Below are positions 11,151-64,000 of a DNA stretch of 64,000 nucleotides, in pieces. Source of the DNA: Rhodococcus jostii RHA1 (lineage in GTDB: Bacteria > Actinomycetota > Actinomycetes > Mycobacteriales > Mycobacteriaceae); NCBI RefSeq assembly GCF_000014565.1, contig NC_008270.1, forward strand, positions 310,001 through 374,000, written 5' to 3'. The notes under the pieces are model-generated. The model ran no database searches and had not been told where the DNA came from. It saw only the letters and a list, made by a program, of their open reading frames with translations. Every line of letters starts with the position of its first letter. Positions within the stretch are counted from its first letter, which is position 1. The position numbers were made by a program, and so were the translations under genes.

Positions 11151-12311
11151 ATGCAACGAACTGTGTTCAACGAGGATCACGAAGCGTTCCGCGAGACAGT
11201 GCGGACCTTCATCGCCAAAGTAGTCGCACCCGTCTACCATGAGTGGGAAGCGGATGGGCATCCGCCGCGCGACTTTTACCGGTGTCTCGGTGAACTCGGC
11301 ATTCTCGGCATCCAGGCGCCCGAGGAGTTCGGCGGCGGTGGCGAAGCGTCAGTCAAGTTCAATGCCGTTGTCGCCGAGGAGTGTGCCGCGGCCGGAGTGT
11401 CTTTCGGGGGTTCCTACTCCGTGCACACCAATCTGATCCTGCCGTACCTCACCATGTACGGGACCGGGGAGCAGCTGCAGCGCTGGCTTCCCGGATTCTG
11501 TTCCGGTGACCTGATGTTCGCGATCGCGATGACTGAGCCCGGCACCGGTTCGGACCTCGCCAATATTTCGGCTACCGCCAAGTTGTCCGAGGATGGCAGC
11601 CACTACGTGCTCAACGGCTCGAAGACCTTCATCACGGGCGGCGTATTGGCGGATCGCATTCTCACGGTGTGCCGCACGTCGCCGTTCGACCCGGAAAACC
11701 GCCGCTCCGGCCTGTCGATTCTCGTCGTCGACACCAGCAGCGAAGGCTTCTCCGTGGGACGCAAGCTGCAGAAGATCGGTTTGAAGACGTCCGACACCGC
11801 CGAGTTGTCCTACGACGACGTAATGGTGCCCGTCTCCGACCTGCTCGGAGAGGAGGGCAAGGGCTTCTCGTACCTAACCCACAATCTCGCGCAGGAGCGG
11901 CTCACCATCGCGTTCGACGCGTCCGCCACCGCGTCGGCCGCGGTTCAGCACGCGATCGCCTACACGACCGATCGCAAGGTGTTCGGCAAGCCCGTCGCCG
12001 CGTTCCAGAACACGAAATTCGTTCTGGCCGAATGTTCCACGGAGTTGCAGGCCGTCCAGCTAATGGTCGACAACGCACTCGAACTGCACGACCGTGGCGA
12101 GCTCTCTGTTCAGGATGCCGCCCGTGCCAAGCTGTTCAGCACCGAAGCGGCCGGACGCATCATCGACAAATGCCTGCAGCTGCACGGTGGTTACGGCTAC
12201 ATTCTCGAGTACCCGATCGCGCGCCTCTACGCCGATACCCGGGTGTCACGGATCTTCGGCGGCACCAGCGAGGTGATGAAGACGATCATCGCCAAGGATC
12301 TCGGACTCTGA
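11151..12311 (+). CDS. Acyl-CoA dehydrogenase (isovaleryl/long-chain-type catalytic base)
   Basis: This FAD enzyme should oxidise an acyl-CoA to the 2,3-enoyl-CoA. The ATG at 11151 is preceded by GAGGAAGAAG; 386 residues is the normal length. Motifs: FAIAMTEPGTGSDLANI (FAD/substrate loop), NGSKTFITGG, and LQLHGGYGY near the end. The usual C-terminal catalytic Glu position (EGTSE in medium-chain enzymes) is Gly here (FGGTSEVMK), while NLAQERL carries a Glu at about residue 247. That arrangement is the one known for isovaleryl-CoA and long-chain dehydrogenases. It is flanked by broken genes, so any former operon is lost. Confidence 0.92.
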   Translation: MQRTVFNEDHEAFRETVRTFIAKVVAPVYHEWEADGHPPRDFYRCLGELGILGIQAPEEFGGGGEASVKFNAVVAEECAAAGVSFGGSYSVHTNLILPYLTMYGTGEQLQRWLPGFCSGDLMFAIAMTEPGTGSDLANISATAKLSEDGSHYVLNGSKTFITGGVLADRILTVCRTSPFDPENRRSGLSILVVDTSSEGFSVGRKLQKIGLKTSDTAELSYDDVMVPVSDLLGEEGKGFSYLTHNLAQERLTIAFDASATASAAVQHAIAYTTDRKVFGKPVAAFQNTKFVLAECSTELQAVQLMVDNALELHDRGELSVQDAARAKLFSTEAAGRIIDKCLQLHGGYGYILEYPIARLYADTRVSRIFGGTSEVMKTIIAKDLGL

Positions 12312-54982: not shown

Positions 54983-56090
54983 ATGGTCGACCTGTTGACG
55001 CCGTGCGGTTCCACGGTGATGCATCGTCCGCCGGGTGGTATCCGGGAGTGCACTCGCCTCAATCAACTCGCCCACGAGTTCCACACCGACCGCAGCGCGA
55101 TCGTCCGCGTCGCACTGCACCGCTTCCTCACCGCGGCGGGACGATTCCGGCACCCGGTTGCTCCGCGAAGACGCCCGCACCGATCTGACCTGCCGCACCC
55201 GCGTGTACGTCAACCCCTCCACACTGGTCCGGCTCGAGCAGCTGATCAGCCGCAACGGCGACCCCCTCACCTCTGCGGCCATTCGGGTCGCGGTCCGCCG
55301 ACTCCCCGACGACCCGGGAGACCTCGCCGCCGACCTGGCCACGATCGGCGCCGCCCGCGACCTGACCCCGGAAACCCTCGGCCCGCGCACGAACGTGCAC
55401 CTCGACGACGACCTGCGCGACCAACTCGACACCCTCGCCGGGCAGCTCGACTCCGACCGCGCCGAACTCATGCGCCTGGCCGCCCGCCAGCTCCTGGCCA
55501 ACCCGCGAGACCTCGAGAAGGCGGTGACCGAGGAGATCTACCGCGGGGACGCCAACCGGGCCAGACTCCTCGCCCGGAACACCCGCCGGCAGACCGCGGA
55601 CCAGGCCACCGCCGAGCCCCCTGTCCGCAAGGCGCCGAGCCCGCAAGGGAACCCGTTCGGGAAACGGCACGTCTTCCGGTTCGATGAGGACACCAAACGC
55701 CGCCTGGAAGACCTGGCGGACGAGTACGGTCCCCGCCGGCTGTCCGCGCTGCTCCGCGGCGTCGGGATTCGCAGACTCATCGAGAACCCGGCAGCCGATG
55801 AGGCACTGGCGCAGGCACGCCGCGTCGCCGCCCCGCCGCGCACAGCCCGGGTCGACGTCGCCCTCGACGACGAACTCCTCGCGCACCTCGACGCCCTCGC
55901 CGAACGGCTCGGCTCGAACCGCCAGGAACTGGTGCATCTGGCGGCCACACGCATCCTCCGTTTCCATCACAACATCGAGAACCGGATGCTCGACGAGATG
56001 TTCCGCGCCCCGACCAGCCGGAAACACCTGCTCGCCAAACATGCCCGCCGTGAGCGGATTCGTCGGAGAGATCGCGGCAGCGGCACCTGA
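54983..56090 (+). pseudogene. Protein of five tandem ribbon-helix-helix units (one frameshift)
   Basis: The frame 55035-56090 encodes four ribbon-helix-helix-like units, each a short strand followed by two helices and a linker. They start near TRVYVNPSTLVRLEQL, TNVHLDDDLRDQLDTLAGQL, HVFRFDEDTKRRLEDLADEY and ARVDVALDDELLAHLDALAE. A fifth unit (RECTRLNQLAHEFHTDRSAI) is in another frame at 54983-55135, joined by a one-base shift. RHH proteins normally bind DNA as dimers of one unit, so a chain of five is unusual. Whether the shift is real or the first unit is lost is unclear; the four-unit form could still be translated. Confidence 0.65.
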
Positions 56091-56510: not shown

Positions 56511-56540
56511 GTGACCTGCGGAAATGACACGTCCCCGGGG
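56511..56540 (+). repeat. 30-bp dispersed element, copy 1
   Basis: Core GGAAATGACACGTCCCC, preceded by TGACCTGC. It lies 75 bp before the Lsr2 start and upstream of TAGGGT (possible -10 near 56570). See copies at 57321, 59195 and 60237. Confidence 0.75.
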
Positions 56541-56614
56541 TCGGTTGCCCTGATCGGCCGCGGCCGCCAGTAGGGTTCTGCCTGCTGTATCGAGACGTGA
56601 GAGATCGGGGAACT

Positions 56615-56977
56615 GTGGCGTGCAAGGTAGTTGTCGAACTGGTCGACGACATCGACGGAACCGTCTTCGGTGGGGACGGGGAGAGCATCACCTTTTCCGT
56701 CAACGGGGTGGATTACGAAGTTGATCTGAAAGGCAAGCACGCCAGCGAGTTTCACAAGCAGATCGGATTCTTCATTGAGCACGCCACCCGGGTCGGTGGC
56801 CGCAAACGACGTTCCGATCGTTTCGCGGTCTCGGACGCCCCGGTGCGGCGGCGCGGGAACGGCAAGGAGATCCGCGCCTGGGCGGCCGAACAGGGCTACG
56901 AAATCTCCTCGCGCGGGCGCATTCCCGCCGAGGTCGAGCAGGCGTTCCAGGACGCACTGAACGCGAAGGAGCGTTGA
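56615..56977 (+). CDS. lsr2: Lsr2-type nucleoid-associated protein
   Basis: The 120-residue protein has the Lsr2 order: KVVVELVDDIDGT, a strand-rich dimerisation domain (FSVNGVDYEVDLKGKHA), a linker and the DNA-binding C-terminus with the RGR motif (EIRAWAAEQGYEISSRGRIP). Lsr2 bridges DNA and silences AT-rich foreign genes. A copy on an accessory replicon can mask the element and its cargo. GTG at 56615 fits the family N-terminus. Stop overlaps the next ATG. Confidence 0.92.
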   Translation: MACKVVVELVDDIDGTVFGGDGESITFSVNGVDYEVDLKGKHASEFHKQIGFFIEHATRVGGRKRRSDRFAVSDAPVRRRGNGKEIRAWAAEQGYEISSRGRIPAEVEQAFQDALNAKER

Positions 56978-57306
56978 TGCGATCGCTGCGTAATCCCTGG
57001 TACCGGGCCTCGGTGCGCCGAGCGGCGAGCGCGCATTGGCTGACCACCGGCAGCCGCGGGTTACGAGGCATGACCGGTGAGCCGGTGGAACTCAGCGACA
57101 CCGAGGCGGCTACCGTCCTCGCTGCCCTGGTCGAAACCACCGGTGGTCGGTGGCCGGCCCACCCCGCGCGTATCGCCCGCACGCTCCGCCGGCTCGGCAT
57201 CGACGGCAACACCGAGCAGATGGCCACTGCCATCACCGCTCTGGTACGCGACCCGGACTGGTCCCACCGCGCCCGAGAGATCACGTCCAGCGCATCGGAC
57301 TGGTAA
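56977..57306 (+). CDS. Hypothetical protein coupled to Lsr2
   Basis: ATG at 56977 overlaps the Lsr2 stop (TGATG). The 109-residue protein has a basic N-terminus (RSLRNPWYRASVRRAASAHW) and a helical second half (DTEAATVLAALVETTGGRWP, IARTLRRLGIDGNTEQMATA). Family unknown; coupling suggests a function with Lsr2. Confidence 0.55.
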   Translation: MRSLRNPWYRASVRRAASAHWLTTGSRGLRGMTGEPVELSDTEAATVLAALVETTGGRWPAHPARIARTLRRLGIDGNTEQMATAITALVRDPDWSHRAREITSSASDW

Positions 57307-57320
57307 GCCGGATTGGCCCA

Positions 57321-57350
57321 TTGACCTGGGGAGATGACATGTCCCCATCG
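57321..57350 (+). repeat. 30-bp dispersed element, copy 2
   Basis: TTGACCTGGGGAGATGACAT-GTCCCCATCG, about 24 of 30 bases like copy 1. It follows the stop of the Lsr2-coupled gene. Confidence 0.75.
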
Positions 57351-57393
57351 ACCGCAGTCCGGGCCCGGCTATTGGCACAGGGAAGCTCTCTAG

Positions 57394-57930
57394 TCAGGCG
57401 TTCTCGCTCTGCTTGTTCGCCACTTCGCCGACTGCACTCTTGAGCCACCACCGGAGATTCCGCCTTCCGACCAATCGCGCACCATCTCCGAACCGGCTTC
57501 GTTCCTGCGAAATGAACGGAACCGAATTGCCCTCGACCACAGGCTCTTGTGTCCAACGGTGCGGCGACCCGTAGATCGCATTGAGGGCGTCGCGGTCATT
57601 TCCCAGCTCTACTAGCTCATCTTCGGAGATTTCATGGTGATGGAGCGGATCGGGAGCACCATCATTTCCTACTCGACGATTGAGCTCCTCGTAGAGCCTG
57701 ACCAGCTCACCAGCAGCCTCTCCCACCTCGGAATGTCCGCGCAGACGTTCGATAAGGAAGGGCAGTACAGGGATGAGGGCCCTTCCTTCTGCGCGGTCGA
57801 TCCAATCGTCTTCCCAACCGAGGGTTCCGTCGGGGCTTGTCTTTGGCTCCCCGAAGAGCTGACGTGCTCCATCGACGGTATATCCCTGGTCGTACAGTTC
57901 TTGGGCAGTGATCCACGACTGCTCGGGCAT
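57394..57930 (-). CDS. Hypothetical protein
   Basis: ATG at 57930 has AGGAG at good spacing. The 178-residue protein is acidic (GWEDDWIDRAEGRALIPVLP, ISEDELVELGNDRDAL) and starts MPEQSWITAQELYDQGYTVD. No family recognised; not a secreted or membrane protein. Confidence 0.6.
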   Translation of the reverse strand: MPEQSWITAQELYDQGYTVDGARQLFGEPKTSPDGTLGWEDDWIDRAEGRALIPVLPFLIERLRGHSEVGEAAGELVRLYEELNRRVGNDGAPDPLHHHEISEDELVELGNDRDALNAIYGSPHRWTQEPVVEGNSVPFISQERSRFGDGARLVGRRNLRWWLKSAVGEVANKQSENA

Positions 57931-57945
57931 TTCACTCCTGCTCAC

Positions 57946-58133
57946 TCTTGTTACGAGCTTCTCAGTCGGACAGTTGCGCGGTGCTTGGCGCGAAGACAGT
58001 GAATCCGCCAGGTGATGGTTTCTCCAAGGACCCCCGCACGCGCTCGGGCGTGTCGCTCAGCCGGACAGTAGTCGCGCCAGCTGAAAGTCAGGTCCTCAAT
58101 GGTCCGATCCGCCGCTGGGTCAGCGGATCCAGG
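57946..58133. other. Short interval without gene
   Basis: Contains the likely promoter of the 57394-57930 gene; nothing else seen. Confidence 0.3.
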
Positions 58134-59081
58134 TCAGAGGTTCCAGAGTCGGAGTAGCGCGGCACGCAGGCTGGCGGAGATGATCCGGTGATCTGTGGTC
58201 AGCCGGGGATTGGGGTGCCCGAAATCGGCGAGCTGTTGTTCGGCGTCCGCAACCGAGACCGGCTGCAGATCCGCCCGAACGAGCAAGAGGTGGCCGAAGG
58301 CCCTGTGCGTGTGCGGAATCGCGATGGCGTCTGAGTCCACGACTGCCGGCGGGTAAATCCAGTCATTGTCGTCGGTGAAGATGAGAACATCGCCACGCCT
58401 GAGGCGGGCGCGCCGGTCGTCGAGGCGGAACCATTCGAGCTGATATGTCGCTGCGGGCCCCGCGGTGGCGGTGTGATGCCGGCGCGCCTGGGTGTCCCAG
58501 GTCTGTTGCTCGGTGACGCTGGGTTCGTATTCGACGATGTGCCGCAGGAACATCCGGGTCACCCGTGCAGGAAGGAAATCCAGTTCGGCGCGCAACCGGC
58601 CACCGATCCCGGGTATCGGCACCGACCGACCGATCTGCCATGCGGTGGTGGCGTTGTCGAGAAACGCCTGATCAACCTCGGTGATCTCCTCGATACCGTC
58701 GATGAACGTCCAGGCGGCGGCCACGACCTCCGGGTCGTCGGTGATGACCACGGCTTCATCGGCGATGGTCGAGCTGTGGGAGGCATTCGCGGAGCCGATG
58801 ACCGCCCGCCGACTGGTGGCGATGACGTTGGCGTGCAGGTTCGGCGACGACAGGACCCTCACACCGGCCTCGACATAGTACGCAAGCGCAATCGGCGAGG
58901 TCACATGCGCGCGCACCGCCGCCCGGGAGGCGTTCACGACGAGGAGATCGCCGGCCCGCAACGGCAGCAGAGTGGGTGCGTCCTCGCCGAGGTAGGCGAT
59001 CGCGGCGTGACGCGGCCCTCTCACTCGAATGGCGCGGGTGATGTGCGGCCAGGGACCCGGCCCGTGAAATGTCGTCCCCAT
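58134..59081 (-). CDS. Phospholipase-D-like protein
   Basis: The 315-residue protein has one PLD-like site: LHANVIATSRRAVIGSANAS. The His and the GSxN are present, but the usual Lys two residues after the His is Asn, which would weaken catalysis. Many bacterial PLD-like proteins with one motif act as dimers on nucleic acids or phosphodiesters. The remainder (RRGDVLIFTDDNDWIYPPAV) is unassigned. Confidence 0.65.
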   Translation of the reverse strand: MGTTFHGPGPWPHITRAIRVRGPRHAAIAYLGEDAPTLLPLRAGDLLVVNASRAAVRAHVTSPIALAYYVEAGVRVLSSPNLHANVIATSRRAVIGSANASHSSTIADEAVVITDDPEVVAAAWTFIDGIEEITEVDQAFLDNATTAWQIGRSVPIPGIGGRLRAELDFLPARVTRMFLRHIVEYEPSVTEQQTWDTQARRHHTATAGPAATYQLEWFRLDDRRARLRRGDVLIFTDDNDWIYPPAVVDSDAIAIPHTHRAFGHLLLVRADLQPVSVADAEQQLADFGHPNPRLTTDHRIISASLRAALLRLWNL

Positions 59082-59194
59082 ACGTCGAACGGTAGCGCGG
59101 ACGTGATGTGCTGTACCCCTATTGGCTCGGACCCGGAGCGTACGGTGCAGCCCATGAGGCCAAATGATCCCGCCGGTCTCTGCGAAAAGCTGTG

Positions 59195-59224
59195 ATGAAC
59201 TGCGGATATGACACGTCCCCATCG
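59195..59224 (+). repeat. 30-bp dispersed element, copy 3
   Basis: ATGAACTGCGGATATGACAC-GTCCCCATCG. It lies between the starts of the PLD-like gene (minus) and the end of the next minus-strand gene. Confidence 0.75.
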
Positions 59225-59252
59225 TTTCTGGTCGACGCCGCCGCGTCCCGCC

Positions 59253-60089
59253 TTACAGCGGCGGCGGCGGTTCATCCCCGTGGACGAGCCTCCACCACAG
59301 GGTCGCGCGCCGACGAGGGATCGGGCCGACGATGATCACGTCGGCCCGATCTGCGGCGGCGAGCATGTAGGGCCGGCGGCGTTCGCGCCATTGCGCGGCG
59401 ACATCCTCGAGGCCGTCGATGCTCATCGGACTGTCGAGGGTCTCGCACGCCAGTTTCAGCCACGGGACGAGATGGCGTTCGGCTTCCCGGCTGATTCCGT
59501 TGCCCGCGAGGGTGTTCTCGACGAGAAGAATTGTCAGATCGCGGCGGATCCGCCACCGCAGTTCAGCTTGATCGACAATGCAGGACCGCTCGGTGGCCCG
59601 ATCGTGGTCGGCGCCGGTCGAGTCGCCGGGGGCGGTGCGAAGCCGTCGGGTGGTCCTGCGGGGTACTGCCCCGAATATCTCGGGTCGTTGGTGTTGATCG
59701 AGGGTGCGGGCGTGGGTGCAGGCGTCGCCCAGTTCGGTGAGCGCGGGCACAGATGGCCGCCGGTGGGTGGCGAGTTGGGCGAGCATATCGGCGCCGAGGT
59801 CTTCGGCGCGCGCAAAGACTTCCAGCCCGTGCCGGTAGCGCAGGACCGCGGCGTTCTCCCAGTGGCGGGCGAGTGCGCGTTCGCGGCGGGGGAGGCCAGC
59901 GACAGCTGCGAAAAATCGTTCCTGGGCTTGGCGTGCTCTATCCCGTAACTCGGTGTCCGCGGCATCGCGGCGGTCGGGGGTGAGGCCGTGCAGCGGGATC
60001 AGCGCTTCCCGCAACTCCTGCGCAGCGTAAGCGAGGTTTTCGAGATCGACGGGGTGGGCGCGCGTGCGTCGCGTGGGTCCAAGCGCCAT
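59253..60089 (-). CDS. Hypothetical protein
   Basis: The 278-residue protein is helical and charged (DLENLAYAAQELREALIPLH, RRDLTILLVENTLAGNGISR, LVPWLKLACETLDSPMSIDG). ATG at 60089. No family recognised; its size and position suggest a replicon-borne accessory gene. Confidence 0.6.
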   Translation of the reverse strand: MALGPTRRTRAHPVDLENLAYAAQELREALIPLHGLTPDRRDAADTELRDRARQAQERFFAAVAGLPRRERALARHWENAAVLRYRHGLEVFARAEDLGADMLAQLATHRRPSVPALTELGDACTHARTLDQHQRPEIFGAVPRRTTRRLRTAPGDSTGADHDRATERSCIVDQAELRWRIRRDLTILLVENTLAGNGISREAERHLVPWLKLACETLDSPMSIDGLEDVAAQWRERRRPYMLAAADRADVIIVGPIPRRRATLWWRLVHGDEPPPPL

Positions 60090-60236
60090 GCTGGGAAGCT
60101 TAACCGGACCGGTAGGGCCGCGATTGCGGCGCCGACCGCGACCGAGCTTGCCGGCCGGGTGAGAACTCGCACCAGCGGCACCGGCTATACATCAGCGCTG
60201 GCGATAGTGGTGTCGCATCAGCCCCAGAAGTGTCCT

Positions 60237-60266
60237 TTGACCAGTAGAAATGACACGTCCCCTGCC
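60237..60266 (+). repeat. 30-bp dispersed element, copy 4
   Basis: TTGACCAGTAGAAATGACAC-GTCCCCTGCC. It shares the 14-base core AATGACACGTCCCC exactly with copy 1. Confidence 0.75.
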
Positions 60267-60628: not shown

Positions 60629-61977
60629 TACTGCAACGGCACTTGCTTGACAGGTAGACGATACTGGTTGTGTGGTCCTCGATCTGGTTGCTGCCGAGTT
60701 GGAAGCGTTGCATGAGCGGATCTCCAGTCGGTTCGCCCGGTCGGAACCGCGGTCCCGGGTCCGTGAATATGTGACGGGTTTGGTTGCGGGTCTGGAACGC
60801 AAGAACGGGTGGACCCTCGCCGAGCGAGCCGGTGAAATGAGCCCGGACGGTATGCAACGCCTGCTGCGGCGGGCCGACTGGGACGTCGACGGGGTCCGCG
60901 ACGACGTGCGTGACTATGCGGTCGAACGCCTCGGCGATCCGGCCGGCGTGTTGATCGTCGATGACACCGGTTTCCTCAAGAAGGGCACCCGCTCGGCCGG
61001 GGTGCAACGCCAGTACTCGGGCACCGCCGGGCGCGTGGAGAATTGTCAGATCGGGGTGTTCCTCGCCTACGCGTCCGGCGCCGGGCACGCGCTCATCGAC
61101 CGGGAGCTCTACCTCCCCGAGTCCTGGACCTCCGACCGGGACCGGTGCCGCGCCGCCGGGATCGGCGACGAGGTGGAGTTCGCGACCAAACCCGTTCTGG
61201 CGCAGCACATGATCGAACGCGCCCTCGACGCACAGGTCCCATTCTCCTGGGCCACCGCCGACGAAGCCTACGGGCAGGTGAAGTACCTGCGGGTCTGGCT
61301 CGAGGAACGCGACATTTCCTACGTGCTGGCCACCCGCCGCAACGACGACGTGTTCACCCCGGATGGCCGCGCCGGCCGCGCCGACGAGATGATCGCCGCG
61401 ATCCCGCCGAAACAGTGGCGCCGCATCTCCGCCGGCGACGGCGCCCACGGCCGACGCGAGTACTCCTGGGTCCGGATCCCGATCCGGATCGCCTGGGCAC
61501 CCGGGCGCGGGCACTGGTTGCTCGCCCGCCGATCACTGTCGGATCCGACCGAGATCGCGTACTACATCTGCGCCGGACCCCGCCGCACCACGCTCACCGA
61601 ACTCGCCACCGTCGCCGGCTCGCGGTGGCGGGTCGAGGAATGCTTCCAACAGGCCAAGAACGAGGCCGGCCTCGACCAGTACCAGGTACGCACCTACCGG
61701 GCCTGGTACGCCCACATCACCTTGTCGATGCTCGCCCTCGCCTGGCTCGCAGGCACGAAAACCGAAGCCATAAAAGGGGAATCGGAACCGATGATCAGGA
61801 CATGATCGGCTACACGGTACCCGAGATCCGCCGCCTACTCGTGTATCTGATCCTGCGACACGCCCACCCCGACGAGCACACCTGGTCCTGGTCACACTGG
61901 CGGAGACGCCGACAACACCAGGCCCGCACCTCCCACTATCGAACCCGCGGTCACCTGCCATAAGTGCCGTTGCAGTA
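60629..61977 (+). mobile_element. IS701-family insertion sequence
   Basis: Perfect 16-bp inverted repeats TACTGCAACGGCACTT at 60629-60644 and 61962-61977 enclose the transposase gene. TTAG is duplicated at 60625-60628 and 61978-61981, the 4-bp type target site known for IS701 elements. Insertion lies between two small host genes. Confidence 0.88.
60672..61805 (+). CDS. IS701-family transposase (C-terminal frameshift)
   Basis: The 377-residue DDE transposase has VLIVDDTGFLKKGTRSAGVQ, SWATADEAYGQVKYLRVWL and SRWRVEECFQQAKNEAGLDQ. Just before the stop the frame leaves homology at an A4G4 run (61771-61778); in the -1 frame the end GYTVPEIRRLLVYLILRH and WSHWRRRRQHQA continues to 61963, the usual IS701 C-terminus. 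So either the last ~50 residues are lost or they are added by frameshifting. Confidence 0.85.
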   Translation: MVLDLVAAELEALHERISSRFARSEPRSRVREYVTGLVAGLERKNGWTLAERAGEMSPDGMQRLLRRADWDVDGVRDDVRDYAVERLGDPAGVLIVDDTGFLKKGTRSAGVQRQYSGTAGRVENCQIGVFLAYASGAGHALIDRELYLPESWTSDRDRCRAAGIGDEVEFATKPVLAQHMIERALDAQVPFSWATADEAYGQVKYLRVWLEERDISYVLATRRNDDVFTPDGRAGRADEMIAAIPPKQWRRISAGDGAHGRREYSWVRIPIRIAWAPGRGHWLLARRSLSDPTEIAYYICAGPRRTTLTELATVAGSRWRVEECFQQAKNEAGLDQYQVRTYRAWYAHITLSMLALAWLAGTKTEAIKGESEPMIRT

Positions 61978-62395
61978 TTAGGCCGTCGTGGGAATGGTGA
62001 TCTCGGCTCTGCCATCGATGGCCGATAGCAGGTAATGCGGGCAGGTGACCACTTGCCGCGGCAGGGGAATCGCCCGGCGGTCGGTGTCGAGGTAGAGGCG
62101 GTATGCGAGCTGCCCGCGCCGATGGACGCCGGTGCCTGGGTCGACGGAGCCGAGGAAGTACCCATGCGCGGAGTCGAGGGTCGAGAAGATCGCCCGCGCC
62201 CACTCGGCAGGCTCCGCGGGCGGCAGATGCCGTGGCACGCCCGTCTGCGCGTCGACGGTGTGCACGATGACCATGACGGCGAACCCGGCCGCCGCAGGGA
62301 ACCACTGCTCGGCCGCGACGTCGAACGGTGCAATGGACGTGTGAATCCGCAGCTCGATGTGCGTTTCCGGTGCGCGCCGCGGCTGTGACGATGTG
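61978..62395 (-). pseudogene. Unknown protein, 5' end lost to ISL3 element
   Basis: The reverse frame reads APFDVAAEQWFPAAAGFAVM, EWARAIFSTLDSAHGYFLGS and ends AEITIPTTA at the TTAG target of the IS701 insertion. Composition is credible and the end intact, but the N-terminus runs into ISL3 sequence at about 62395. Family unknown. Confidence 0.5.
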
Positions 62396-62985: not shown

Positions 62986-64000
62986 TCAGGCAGTCAAGGC
63001 CGGTGTCACCTCCTCGGTGGACTCGGTGCTGCTGTCGGTGGGCTTGTCGTTGCGGGAACGGGCCAGAACGTCCAGGCCGAGATAGCGGCGCCCTTCGATC
63101 CACTCGTCGTGTTGTTCGGCCAAGACCGCACCGACGAGCCGGATCAGGGCGGTACGATCCGGGAAGATTCCGACCACATCGGTTCTCCTGCGGATTTCCT
63201 TATTGAGGCGCTCCTGCGGATTGTTGCTCCAGATCTGTTTCCAAATCTGCTTGGGAAATGCGGTGAACGCCAACAGGTCCGGTCGTGCTGCGTCGAGGTG
63301 GTCAGCGACCCTCGGCAACTTCTCCGACAGTGCGCCGATGATTCGATCATATTGGGCATGAACAGAATCCGCGTCGGGTTGGTCGTAGACCGAGTGCAGC
63401 AACGTCTTCACCCAAGGCCACGATGCCTTCGGGGTCACCGCCATCAGGTTTGTCGAGTAATGGGTTCGGCACCTCTGCCACGAGGCGCCCGGCAGGGTCC
63501 CACCGATCGCCGCCACCAGCCCGGCGTGCGCATCGGAGGTCACCAACCGCACCCCGCCCAAACCGCGGGCGACGAGCGATCGGAAGAACGCCAGCCAGCC
63601 GGCACCGTCCTCGGACGAGGTCACATCCACGCCCAGGATCTCGCGGTAGCCCTCGGCGTTGACGCCGACCGCGACCAGGGTGTGTACATTCACCACCCGA
63701 CCGTTTTCCCGCACCTTGAGCACCAGGGCGTCGGCGGCGACGAAGGTGTACGGCCCGGTATCGAGCGGGCGGCTGCGGAACGCCTCGACCTGGGTGTCGA
63801 GGTCCTTGGCCATCACGGACACCTGCGACTTGGACAGGCCGGTGATGCCCAACGTGTCGACGAGCCGGTCCATCCGCCGGGTGGAGACCCCGAGCAGGTA
63901 GCAGGTGGCAACCACGGTAGTCAGGGCCTTTTCGGCGCGTTTGCGACGCTCGAGCAACCAATCGGGGAAGTACGAACCGGACCGCAGCTTCGGGATCGCC
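62986..64000 (-). CDS. IS256-family (mutator-type) transposase, 5' partial
   Basis: The frame runs off the window. It reads KLRSGSYFPDWLLERRKRAE, LLGVSTRRMDRLVDTLGI, DGAGWLAFFRSLVARGLGGV, SDAHAGLVAAIGGTLPGAS, RCRTHYSTNL and NNPQERLNKEIRRRTDVVGI, the IS256/MULE pattern with DDE residues intact. It is probably a functional transposase gene. Confidence 0.88.
   Translation of the reverse strand, partial: AIPKLRSGSYFPDWLLERRKRAEKALTTVVATCYLLGVSTRRMDRLVDTLGITGLSKSQVSVMAKDLDTQVEAFRSRPLDTGPYTFVAADALVLKVRENGRVVNVHTLVAVGVNAEGYREILGVDVTSSEDGAGWLAFFRSLVARGLGGVRLVTSDAHAGLVAAIGGTLPGASWQRCRTHYSTNLMAVTPKASWPWVKTLLHSVYDQPDADSVHAQYDRIIGALSEKLPRVADHLDAARPDLLAFTAFPKQIWKQIWSNNPQERLNKEIRRRTDVVGIFPDRTALIRLVGAVLAEQHDEWIEGRRYLGLDVLARSRNDKPTDSSTESTEEVTPALTA

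Follow-up and report, generated by a model that had tools for sequence, protein, structure and literature searches.

What are the four short repeats near one end of a 64-kb stretch of a Rhodococcus jostii RHA1 replicon, and what might they do there? The window, as the whole analyzed stretch of 64,000 nucleotides is called here, corresponds to positions 310001-374000 of contig C3 (442,536 bp). The source genome (9.7 Mb) is in four contigs, C1 (7.80 Mb, the chromosome), C2 (1.12 Mb), C3 (0.44 Mb), and C4 (0.33 Mb). An earlier note on this DNA had pointed out four same-strand copies of one element, beginning at 56511, 57321, 59195, and 60237. These copies are real and far from chance. The 17-mer GGAAATGACACGTCCCC is matched four times in the window with three or fewer mismatches, against a mean of 0.27 and a maximum of 2 in 100 dinucleotide shuffles, none of which reaches four. 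A weight matrix, trained on 45 distinct sites that include the four window copies, scores above 12 at exactly these copies in the whole 64 kb and nowhere in the reversed sequence. It is well supported that the sites belong to a conserved element family of linear replicons and that they coincide with exchange joints. The window copies are as follows.

56511..56536, plus strand, site copy 1, GTGACCTGCGGAAATGACACGTCCCC; 40 bp past a predicted same-strand stop (open reading frame (ORF) of 123 amino acids) and upstream of lsr2.
57321..57346, plus strand, site copy 2, TTGACCTGGGGAGATGACATGTCCCC; 15 bp past the stop of orf110, with a right flank that differs among relatives from there.
59195..59220, plus strand, site copy 3, ATGAACTGCGGATATGACACGTCCCC; upstream of the gene for a PLD-like protein, with a right flank of several types in relatives.
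60237..60262, plus strand, site copy 4, TTGACCAGTAGAAATGACACGTCCCC; upstream of orf278.

Relative to predicted minus-strand starts, copy 3 is 171 bp upstream and copy 4 is 148 bp upstream; from the conserved start of the PLD-like gene, copy 3 is 114 bp away. Two details of the earlier description needed correction. The leading TTGACCTG is exact in copy 2 only, while the other copies read GTGACCTG, ATGAACTG, and TTGACCAG. Copy 1 does stand upstream of lsr2, but at a distance of 79 bp and not 75, counted from the end of the copy to the start that is annotated in the PD630 homologue.

The consensus core of the family is 25 bp long, TGAMCWGSGGARATGACAYGTCCCC; it holds the imperfect dyad GACNTG-N9-CANGTC, and roughly ten bases upstream of it there is a weak A-tract. 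In a logo built from 100 of 169 sites, those with unrelated 5' flanks, a weak AAA at -23 to -21 is followed by TGAMCWG and then by SGGARATGACAYGTCCCC with a sharp edge. The flanks farther out carry little information. Five pairs of the dyad (-12/+8, -11/+7, -10/+6, -8/+4, and -7/+3) are complementary in 57 to 94 of the 100 sites, which equals the expectation from the make-up of the columns, and the remaining six symmetric pairs are complementary in 2 to 25. The scan keeps only stretches with A/G, T/C, G, A, and CC at set core positions. Because of this, it missed variants, for example the telomere copies of the chromosome (TCTCC) and one copy at locus L057.

The search of the full replicon and related plasmids that the earlier note had suggested revealed this wider family. 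At one mismatch or fewer to a 16-base core, the source genome holds 31 sites (four on C1, ten on C2, eight on C3, and nine on C4), and the reversed pattern gives none. Three plasmid contigs (1.9 Mb) thus hold 27 of the 31, and the 7.8-Mb chromosome holds four. On C3, no site scoring at least 22 lies in the first 366 kb; all such sites are in the last 77 kb. Exact matches to a similar core occur in 10 of 28 genomes of the genus, with a reversed control of zero in all 28. A match is present in 28 of 151 genomes of the family, and three or more in nine; many of the single hits may be chance, because the reversed control gives three hits in total. Among GTDB representatives, a strict 25-base pattern was found in 11 stretches (six from Rhodococcus, three from Nocardia, and two in one metagenome-assembled genome of the Mycobacteriaceae). 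The same pattern had no match in IMG/VR, and among phages there were seven records with weak or partial matches, none convincing.

The related plasmids that were recovered come from Rhodococcus opacus and its neighbors. Seven whole PLSDB plasmids have 14, 4, 17, 21, 16, 18, and 12 sites at two or fewer mismatches, and the reversed control has none. A blastn search of PLSDB with the consensus (E up to 10) returned 75 records, 58 of Rhodococcus, 11 of Prescottella, and six others that are probably chance. Site-dense replicons include pNSL1 (18 sites), plas2 (17 sites), and the 73-kb contig G150:C10 from another genus (26 sites). In NZ_CP069243.1 (USK13_2), the site positions are mirror-symmetric about 100,984, and therefore much of this 173-kb record appears to be an inverted duplication, either real or an effect of assembly. 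A literature search by title or abstract start, in which subscription papers were mostly not covered, found no paper naming the site. The core 12-mer appears in the text of papers that are, by title, human or animal cell studies only, presumably as primers. This 25-base site family of linear replicons in Rhodococcus and its relatives is apparently so far undescribed.

The sites keep largely to the spaces between genes. Gene calls outside annotated records come from our own codon-score script. In one set, 108 of 116 sites lie outside predicted genes, in sequence of which 68% is predicted to be coding. In a set of 212 distinct sites, 11 are within predicted genes and 12 have no gene on one side. 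The copies are thus not scattered at random through coding sequence, the outcome that the earlier note had named as counting against its reading. The remaining sites are in tandem gaps (69 sense and 57 antisense), convergent gaps (38), and divergent gaps (25).

A promoter, operator, or directional terminator is one possible reading of the sites. The position of copy 1 before lsr2 would suit a transcription element, and so would the tendency of sites to follow a same-strand stop at a median distance of 31 bp (set of 212). However, 72 of 107 same-strand upstream stops are within 50 bp and 80 of 107 within 100 bp, whereas same-strand downstream starts are within these distances in 17 and 31 of 94 cases. 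The promoter element shared by all copies that the earlier note had offered is disfavored because the sites cluster after stop codons. The gap types are not significantly biased either, with p 0.33 for tandem sense against antisense and a Fisher p of 0.08 for the convergent to divergent ratio (38:25 against a background of 204:224). Folding of the site with its sense flanks is no better than that of shuffles (mean z -0.06 to -0.13). The hairpin potential of the site itself is likewise low (mean z -0.06, with z below -2 in 8 of 100 sites). Folding is slightly stronger for the antisense strand of the 3' flank (mean z -0.39, below -2 in 15 of 106). Terminator-like hairpins followed by a T run occur in five of 106 3' flanks and in five shuffled flanks. 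A directional terminator was rejected, as there is neither a strand rule nor an excess of structure or terminators. A role in transcription in general is thus quite improbable.

The single direction of the window copies, which the earlier note had stressed, is correct within the window, but both strands are used elsewhere. A strict polarity toward the telomere is seen in the telomere-proximal copies and along two telomere arms and not elsewhere. On those arms, the left of pNSL1 and the right of G150:C10, nearly all sites have CCCG or CCCA at their end in place of CCCC and are directed toward the telomere, and they possibly form a subtype.

The sites coincide with places where homology between related replicons breaks. 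There are 154 homology ends no more than 12 bp from a site, whereas 300 shifted sets give 30.6 (standard deviation 10.3, maximum 65). Such a break is present at 45 of 116 sites. For gene 3' ends the figure is 61 of 660, and for intergenic midpoints that lack a site it is 22 of 443. There are about 12 exchange families, as grouped by our judgement. In the paralogous array on C4, the match to the window runs up to 59220 and begins again from 60250. Therefore, the following block is missing there, with one site left.

59209..60250, no strand assigned, 1042-bp block of orf278 and one site; absent from the C4 array, where one hybrid site remains.

The left half of this hybrid site is nearer to copy 3 and its right flank is like that of copy 4. 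Similarly, plas2 is without the block between the direct pNSL1 sites 60309 and 58888 and has kept one hybrid site. Both of these clean two-site events, in which a block between direct copies was lost or gained, are at the site next to a PLD-like gene. A one-sided change at a site is seen between several pairs of loci (for example, L047/L048, L048/L042, L045/L079, L056/L073, and L054/L043).

Another reading is that the sites are solitary Tn3-like terminal inverted repeats moved by one-ended transposition. Read on the other strand, the site does show a sharp GGGG edge and a looser inner part, about 38 bp in all, and homology on the 5' side often stops at the GGGG edge. However, Tn3 transposase matches are present only on the source chromosome and on one of the seven PLSDB plasmids, with none on the source plasmids. 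Two Tn3 loci that were scanned (L133 and L137) have no site at score 12. A 5-bp flank duplication is found in none of 83 outward-facing site pairs and one of 4 bp in a single pair (0.44 expected), and the window is dominated by direct arrays. Such an origin can be given hardly any credit, and the earlier remark that the copies do not look like ends of insertion sequences is supported.

The sites are also found at telomeres. Seven of the eight replicon ends of the source genome, chromosome included, carry a tip-pointing site at 523-548 bp. The near edge of the site is 545 bp from the tip at both ends of C1, 548 and 523 bp at the ends of C2, 545 bp at the right end of C3, and 548 and 546 bp at the ends of C4; the left end of C3 has no telomere-proximal site. 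Among other replicons, the distances are 541 bp at both ends of pNSL1, 550 and 546 bp for pR1CP1, 520 bp at the right end of pROB01, and 774 bp for G150:C10. All 13 of these copies point to the tip, as do two near record ends that are possibly truncated (plas2 left and pRoPD630_1 left). Five of the six ends of C2 to C4 have an invertron-like terminal sequence in common, the exception being the left end of C3, which has a different type. The two ends of C3 (L078 on the left and L080 on the right) belong to unrelated telomere types. Together with the confinement of its sites to the last 77 kb, this makes C3 look as if it were a fusion of two replicons.

Shared telomere sequence in some cases begins at the site. 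The left and right ends of C4 are alike from one base outside the site out to the tip, and the sequence common to the left ends of plas2 and pNSL1 stops at the outer 5' edge of the site. At other ends of the source genome, the shared sequence extends further beyond the site. Between pNSL1 and the R. opacus-type telomeres, an alignment is possible only over the terminal 170 bases or so and over some 30 bases at the site, with nothing aligning in the stretch between. For WAY2, telomeres 88-93% identical over the first 500 bp, with one end of another type, are described, and the available text of that genome paper names no such site (PMC7276702). An internal chromosomal site (C1:780347-780371, around 3348 of L087) has about 66 bp of telomere-type right flank, after which there is no telomere homology.

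Several sites stay in place between genera while their flanks have diverged. Plasmid pNSL1 and G150:C10 have a common gene order, and nine pNSL1 sites can be placed with orthologously located G150:C10 sites in ten pairings, two sites having two possible partners. In eight of the ten pairings, the identity of the 60-bp flanks is 0.55-0.70, as compared to 0.53-0.59 when shuffled. Flanks are conserved in the remaining two, 47083 and 47966, of which 47966 is within a gene. The raw identity of the sites themselves is 0.58-0.85, and all of the G150:C10 partners score above 20. In three pairings, site identity is not above that of the better flank, because the variable positions of the site differ.

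This retention bears on two further explanations. The first is that the sites are short repeats like repetitive extragenic palindromic (REP) elements, without a host function, which spread in a plasmid family and settled where they were least harmful. Their many copies, mostly at gene 3' ends and a few at degenerate scores, would agree with this. The sharp 25-base profile across 100 unrelated flanks does not, and neither do the retention in place across genera and the telomere copy on seven of the eight source ends. In addition, no gain of a bare site into an intact gap was seen in the places compared, although no systematic search was made. This explanation is improbable, if less so than a role in transcription.

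The second is that the sites are dispersed protein-binding sites for segregation, tethering, or DNA architecture, and that recombination or slippage between such short, dispersed repeats produces the joints as a by-product. Sites that remain where they are while the flanks fall to near shuffled identity are what would be expected of it. The same can be said of the pNSL1 and R. opacus-type ends, of the intergenic placement with no strict strand rule, and of the densest plasmids, on which no recombinase was matched. On G150:C10, six direct sites stand within 1 kb (61109-62116, L171), beyond the par operon and directly before the AlpA-like gene described below, and the last gaps among them hold very short genes or none. 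The earlier note had named partition or replication iterons as one possibility, and this cluster may fit them. However, in the orthologous par region of C4 there are just two scores, both weak (12.3 and 15.3), and therefore the sites would be dispensable there. The first 366 kb of C3, lacking high-scoring sites, also count against a segregation or architectural role, and the by-product view does not itself predict that telomere homology begins at the site. Binding without recombination is a real possibility. It is nearly as likely as the use of the sites as recombination joints, and the earlier phrase "sites for an unknown DNA-binding protein" probably names the right class of explanation.

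The use of the sites as joints is preferred here, tentatively and at somewhat less than an even chance. The sites would be recognized by a linear-replicon factor and would serve as joints where blocks and telomeres are exchanged in the Nocardiaceae. A factor serving these linear replicons would recognize the 25-bp core TGAMCWGSGGARATGACAYGTCCCC. The bound factor, or an enzyme recruited by it, would join two sites by site-specific recombination within ATGACAYGTCCCC. Blocks between sites could then be excised, inserted, or moved among replicons, and a telomere piece of about 550 bp could be exchanged via the telomere-proximal site. It is proposed that the ends of different replicons would therefore be kept alike. 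We infer that a dedicated recombinase makes the joints. It is rather unlikely, though worth stating, that a single site-specific exchange system is common to the linear replicons of the Nocardiaceae, chromosomes included, and that it shuffles modules and swaps telomeres, thereby holding unrelated replicon ends alike and building chimeric linear megaplasmids.

A number of observations weigh against recombination at the sites. When only features with adjacent homology are counted, the contrast shrinks to breaks at 45 of 87 sites, as compared to 61 of 200 for gene 3' ends and 22 of 140 for midpoints, and the break counts are not independent of each other. In several events the change is at a site on one side only. 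The inserts next to copies 2 and 3 stop at window positions 57413 and 59227-59249, and a methyltransferase block in plas2 begins and ends away from sites. The base at which homology breaks is not fixed: copies 2 and 3 have the break at their right edge, the clean events have it within the core, and telomeres have it at the left edge or farther left. Hybrid sites would likewise remain after slippage between direct repeats of 25 bp. There is no match to tyrosine or serine recombinase families on pNSL1, plas2, USK13_2, or G150:C10. As for the best candidate binder, which is described below, sites occur on plasmids without it, and it may only mark a plasmid family.

The linear megaplasmids of Rhodococcus are mosaics whose telomeres are alike across replicons, and how blocks and ends are exchanged is left unexplained in the available texts of PMC7276702 and PMC7205883. 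A common 25-bp site located at block joints and at the edge of a shared telomere piece offers a testable way into how this exchange happens. The site sequence can be used to mark modules on linear replicons and could possibly become a recombination tool for actinobacteria.

Which protein could act at the sites? The best candidate binder is a putative AlpA/Xis-like protein of 89 amino acids (pNSL1 11778-12047). It is strongly conserved, an alignment of ten relatives having 36 invariant columns out of 91. The protein has a match to a PHROG of DNA-binding proteins (1e-13) and weak matches to excisionase families. Its best PDB profile match is an AlpA protein, at an E of 0.25, which is not significant. 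It was found in 52 PLSDB plasmids, 44 of which are among the site matches listed, and by our reading a site is within about 0.3 kb of its gene at eight of 11 loci. In the source DNA that was examined, it is present on C2 (L040 and L041) only and not on C3 or C4.

Other candidates come from the surroundings of the window copies, which hold the following predicted genes.

55035..56090, plus strand, 351-amino-acid protein with two RHH_1 matches; absent from the three site-dense plasmids tested.
56597..56977, plus strand, lsr2; ORF as listed, the annotated start of homologues being slightly later.
56974..57306, plus strand, orf110, hypothetical; no Pfam or NCBIfam match.
57394..57945, minus strand, orf183, hypothetical; no Pfam or NCBIfam match.
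58134..59081, minus strand, PLD-like protein; weak PLDc_2 match below cut-off, a frequent neighbor of sites.
59253..60089, minus strand, orf278, hypothetical; weak MZB match below cut-off.

The multi-RHH protein and Lsr2 had both been suggested as partners of the element. Neither is supported as a necessary one, as no tblastn match at E 1e-5 was found on pNSL1, plas2, or G150:C10, which have 18, 17, and 26 sites. The PLD-like protein has a strong match (E < 1e-40) in eight of the 151 family genomes, and all eight have a site. As the recombinase it was nevertheless rejected. Two site-bearing genomes, G071 (seven sites) and G012 (three sites), are without a match, and G150 and G053 have weak matches only. 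Of the PLD loci that include an N terminus, roughly one in two has no upstream site, and many family members no longer have the HxK and GSxN residues. In several plasmids these residues are replaced (for example, by LHTG and GPAS) while the rest of the protein is conserved. No match to this protein was found in PDB by sequence. In two plasmids (L040 7995-11164 and L055 8106-11279), the PLD-like gene is split at the same place by some 3.2 kb of inserted DNA that has a tyrosine recombinase match.

Tandem tyrosine recombinases near some sites were also considered and rejected, since they are not general and none is present on pNSL1, plas2, or USK13_2. Such pairs recur at L060 1-2415, G000:C1:7488529-7490800, C3:263780-266391, and C4:136589-138828, with frames of about 414-423 and 720-1037 amino acids, and sites lie within about 3 kb of two of the pairs. 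On C3, the window array is at 366.5-370.3 kb; its closest PF00589 match (C3:325519) is below cut-off, and the nearest one over cut-off is at C3:421925. To the right of the array, window positions 60672-61805 and 62986-63957 hold long ORFs that appear transposase-like by eye.

Several known systems resemble this one in part. The pdif or dif modules of Acinetobacter plasmids are bounded by short sites recombined by XerCD, a dif-like site being 28 bp long with arms of 11 bp for XerC and XerD. As in those modules, short repeated sites stand between small plasmid gene modules, which are gained or lost at the sites. Unlike them, the present sequence does not appear dif-like, and the sites are on linear replicons with telomere copies. 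Integron attC/attI sites are similar in often following a stop codon in the same orientation, with gene-plus-site blocks that differ among relatives (two clean cases here). However, the present sites have no hairpin potential above shuffles, no integrase is beside the window array, and the gene order of one arm is conserved between genera. The linear replicon N15 has dispersed centromere sites and likewise carries several intergenic sites scattered along its length. The sequence of its sites and its host are different. In Streptomyces, telomere exchange has been inferred (PMC7205883). No site is given for it, and the term "site-specific" is absent from the available text (PMC7205883), but the outcome is alike in that the ends of linear replicons are swapped (PMC7205883).

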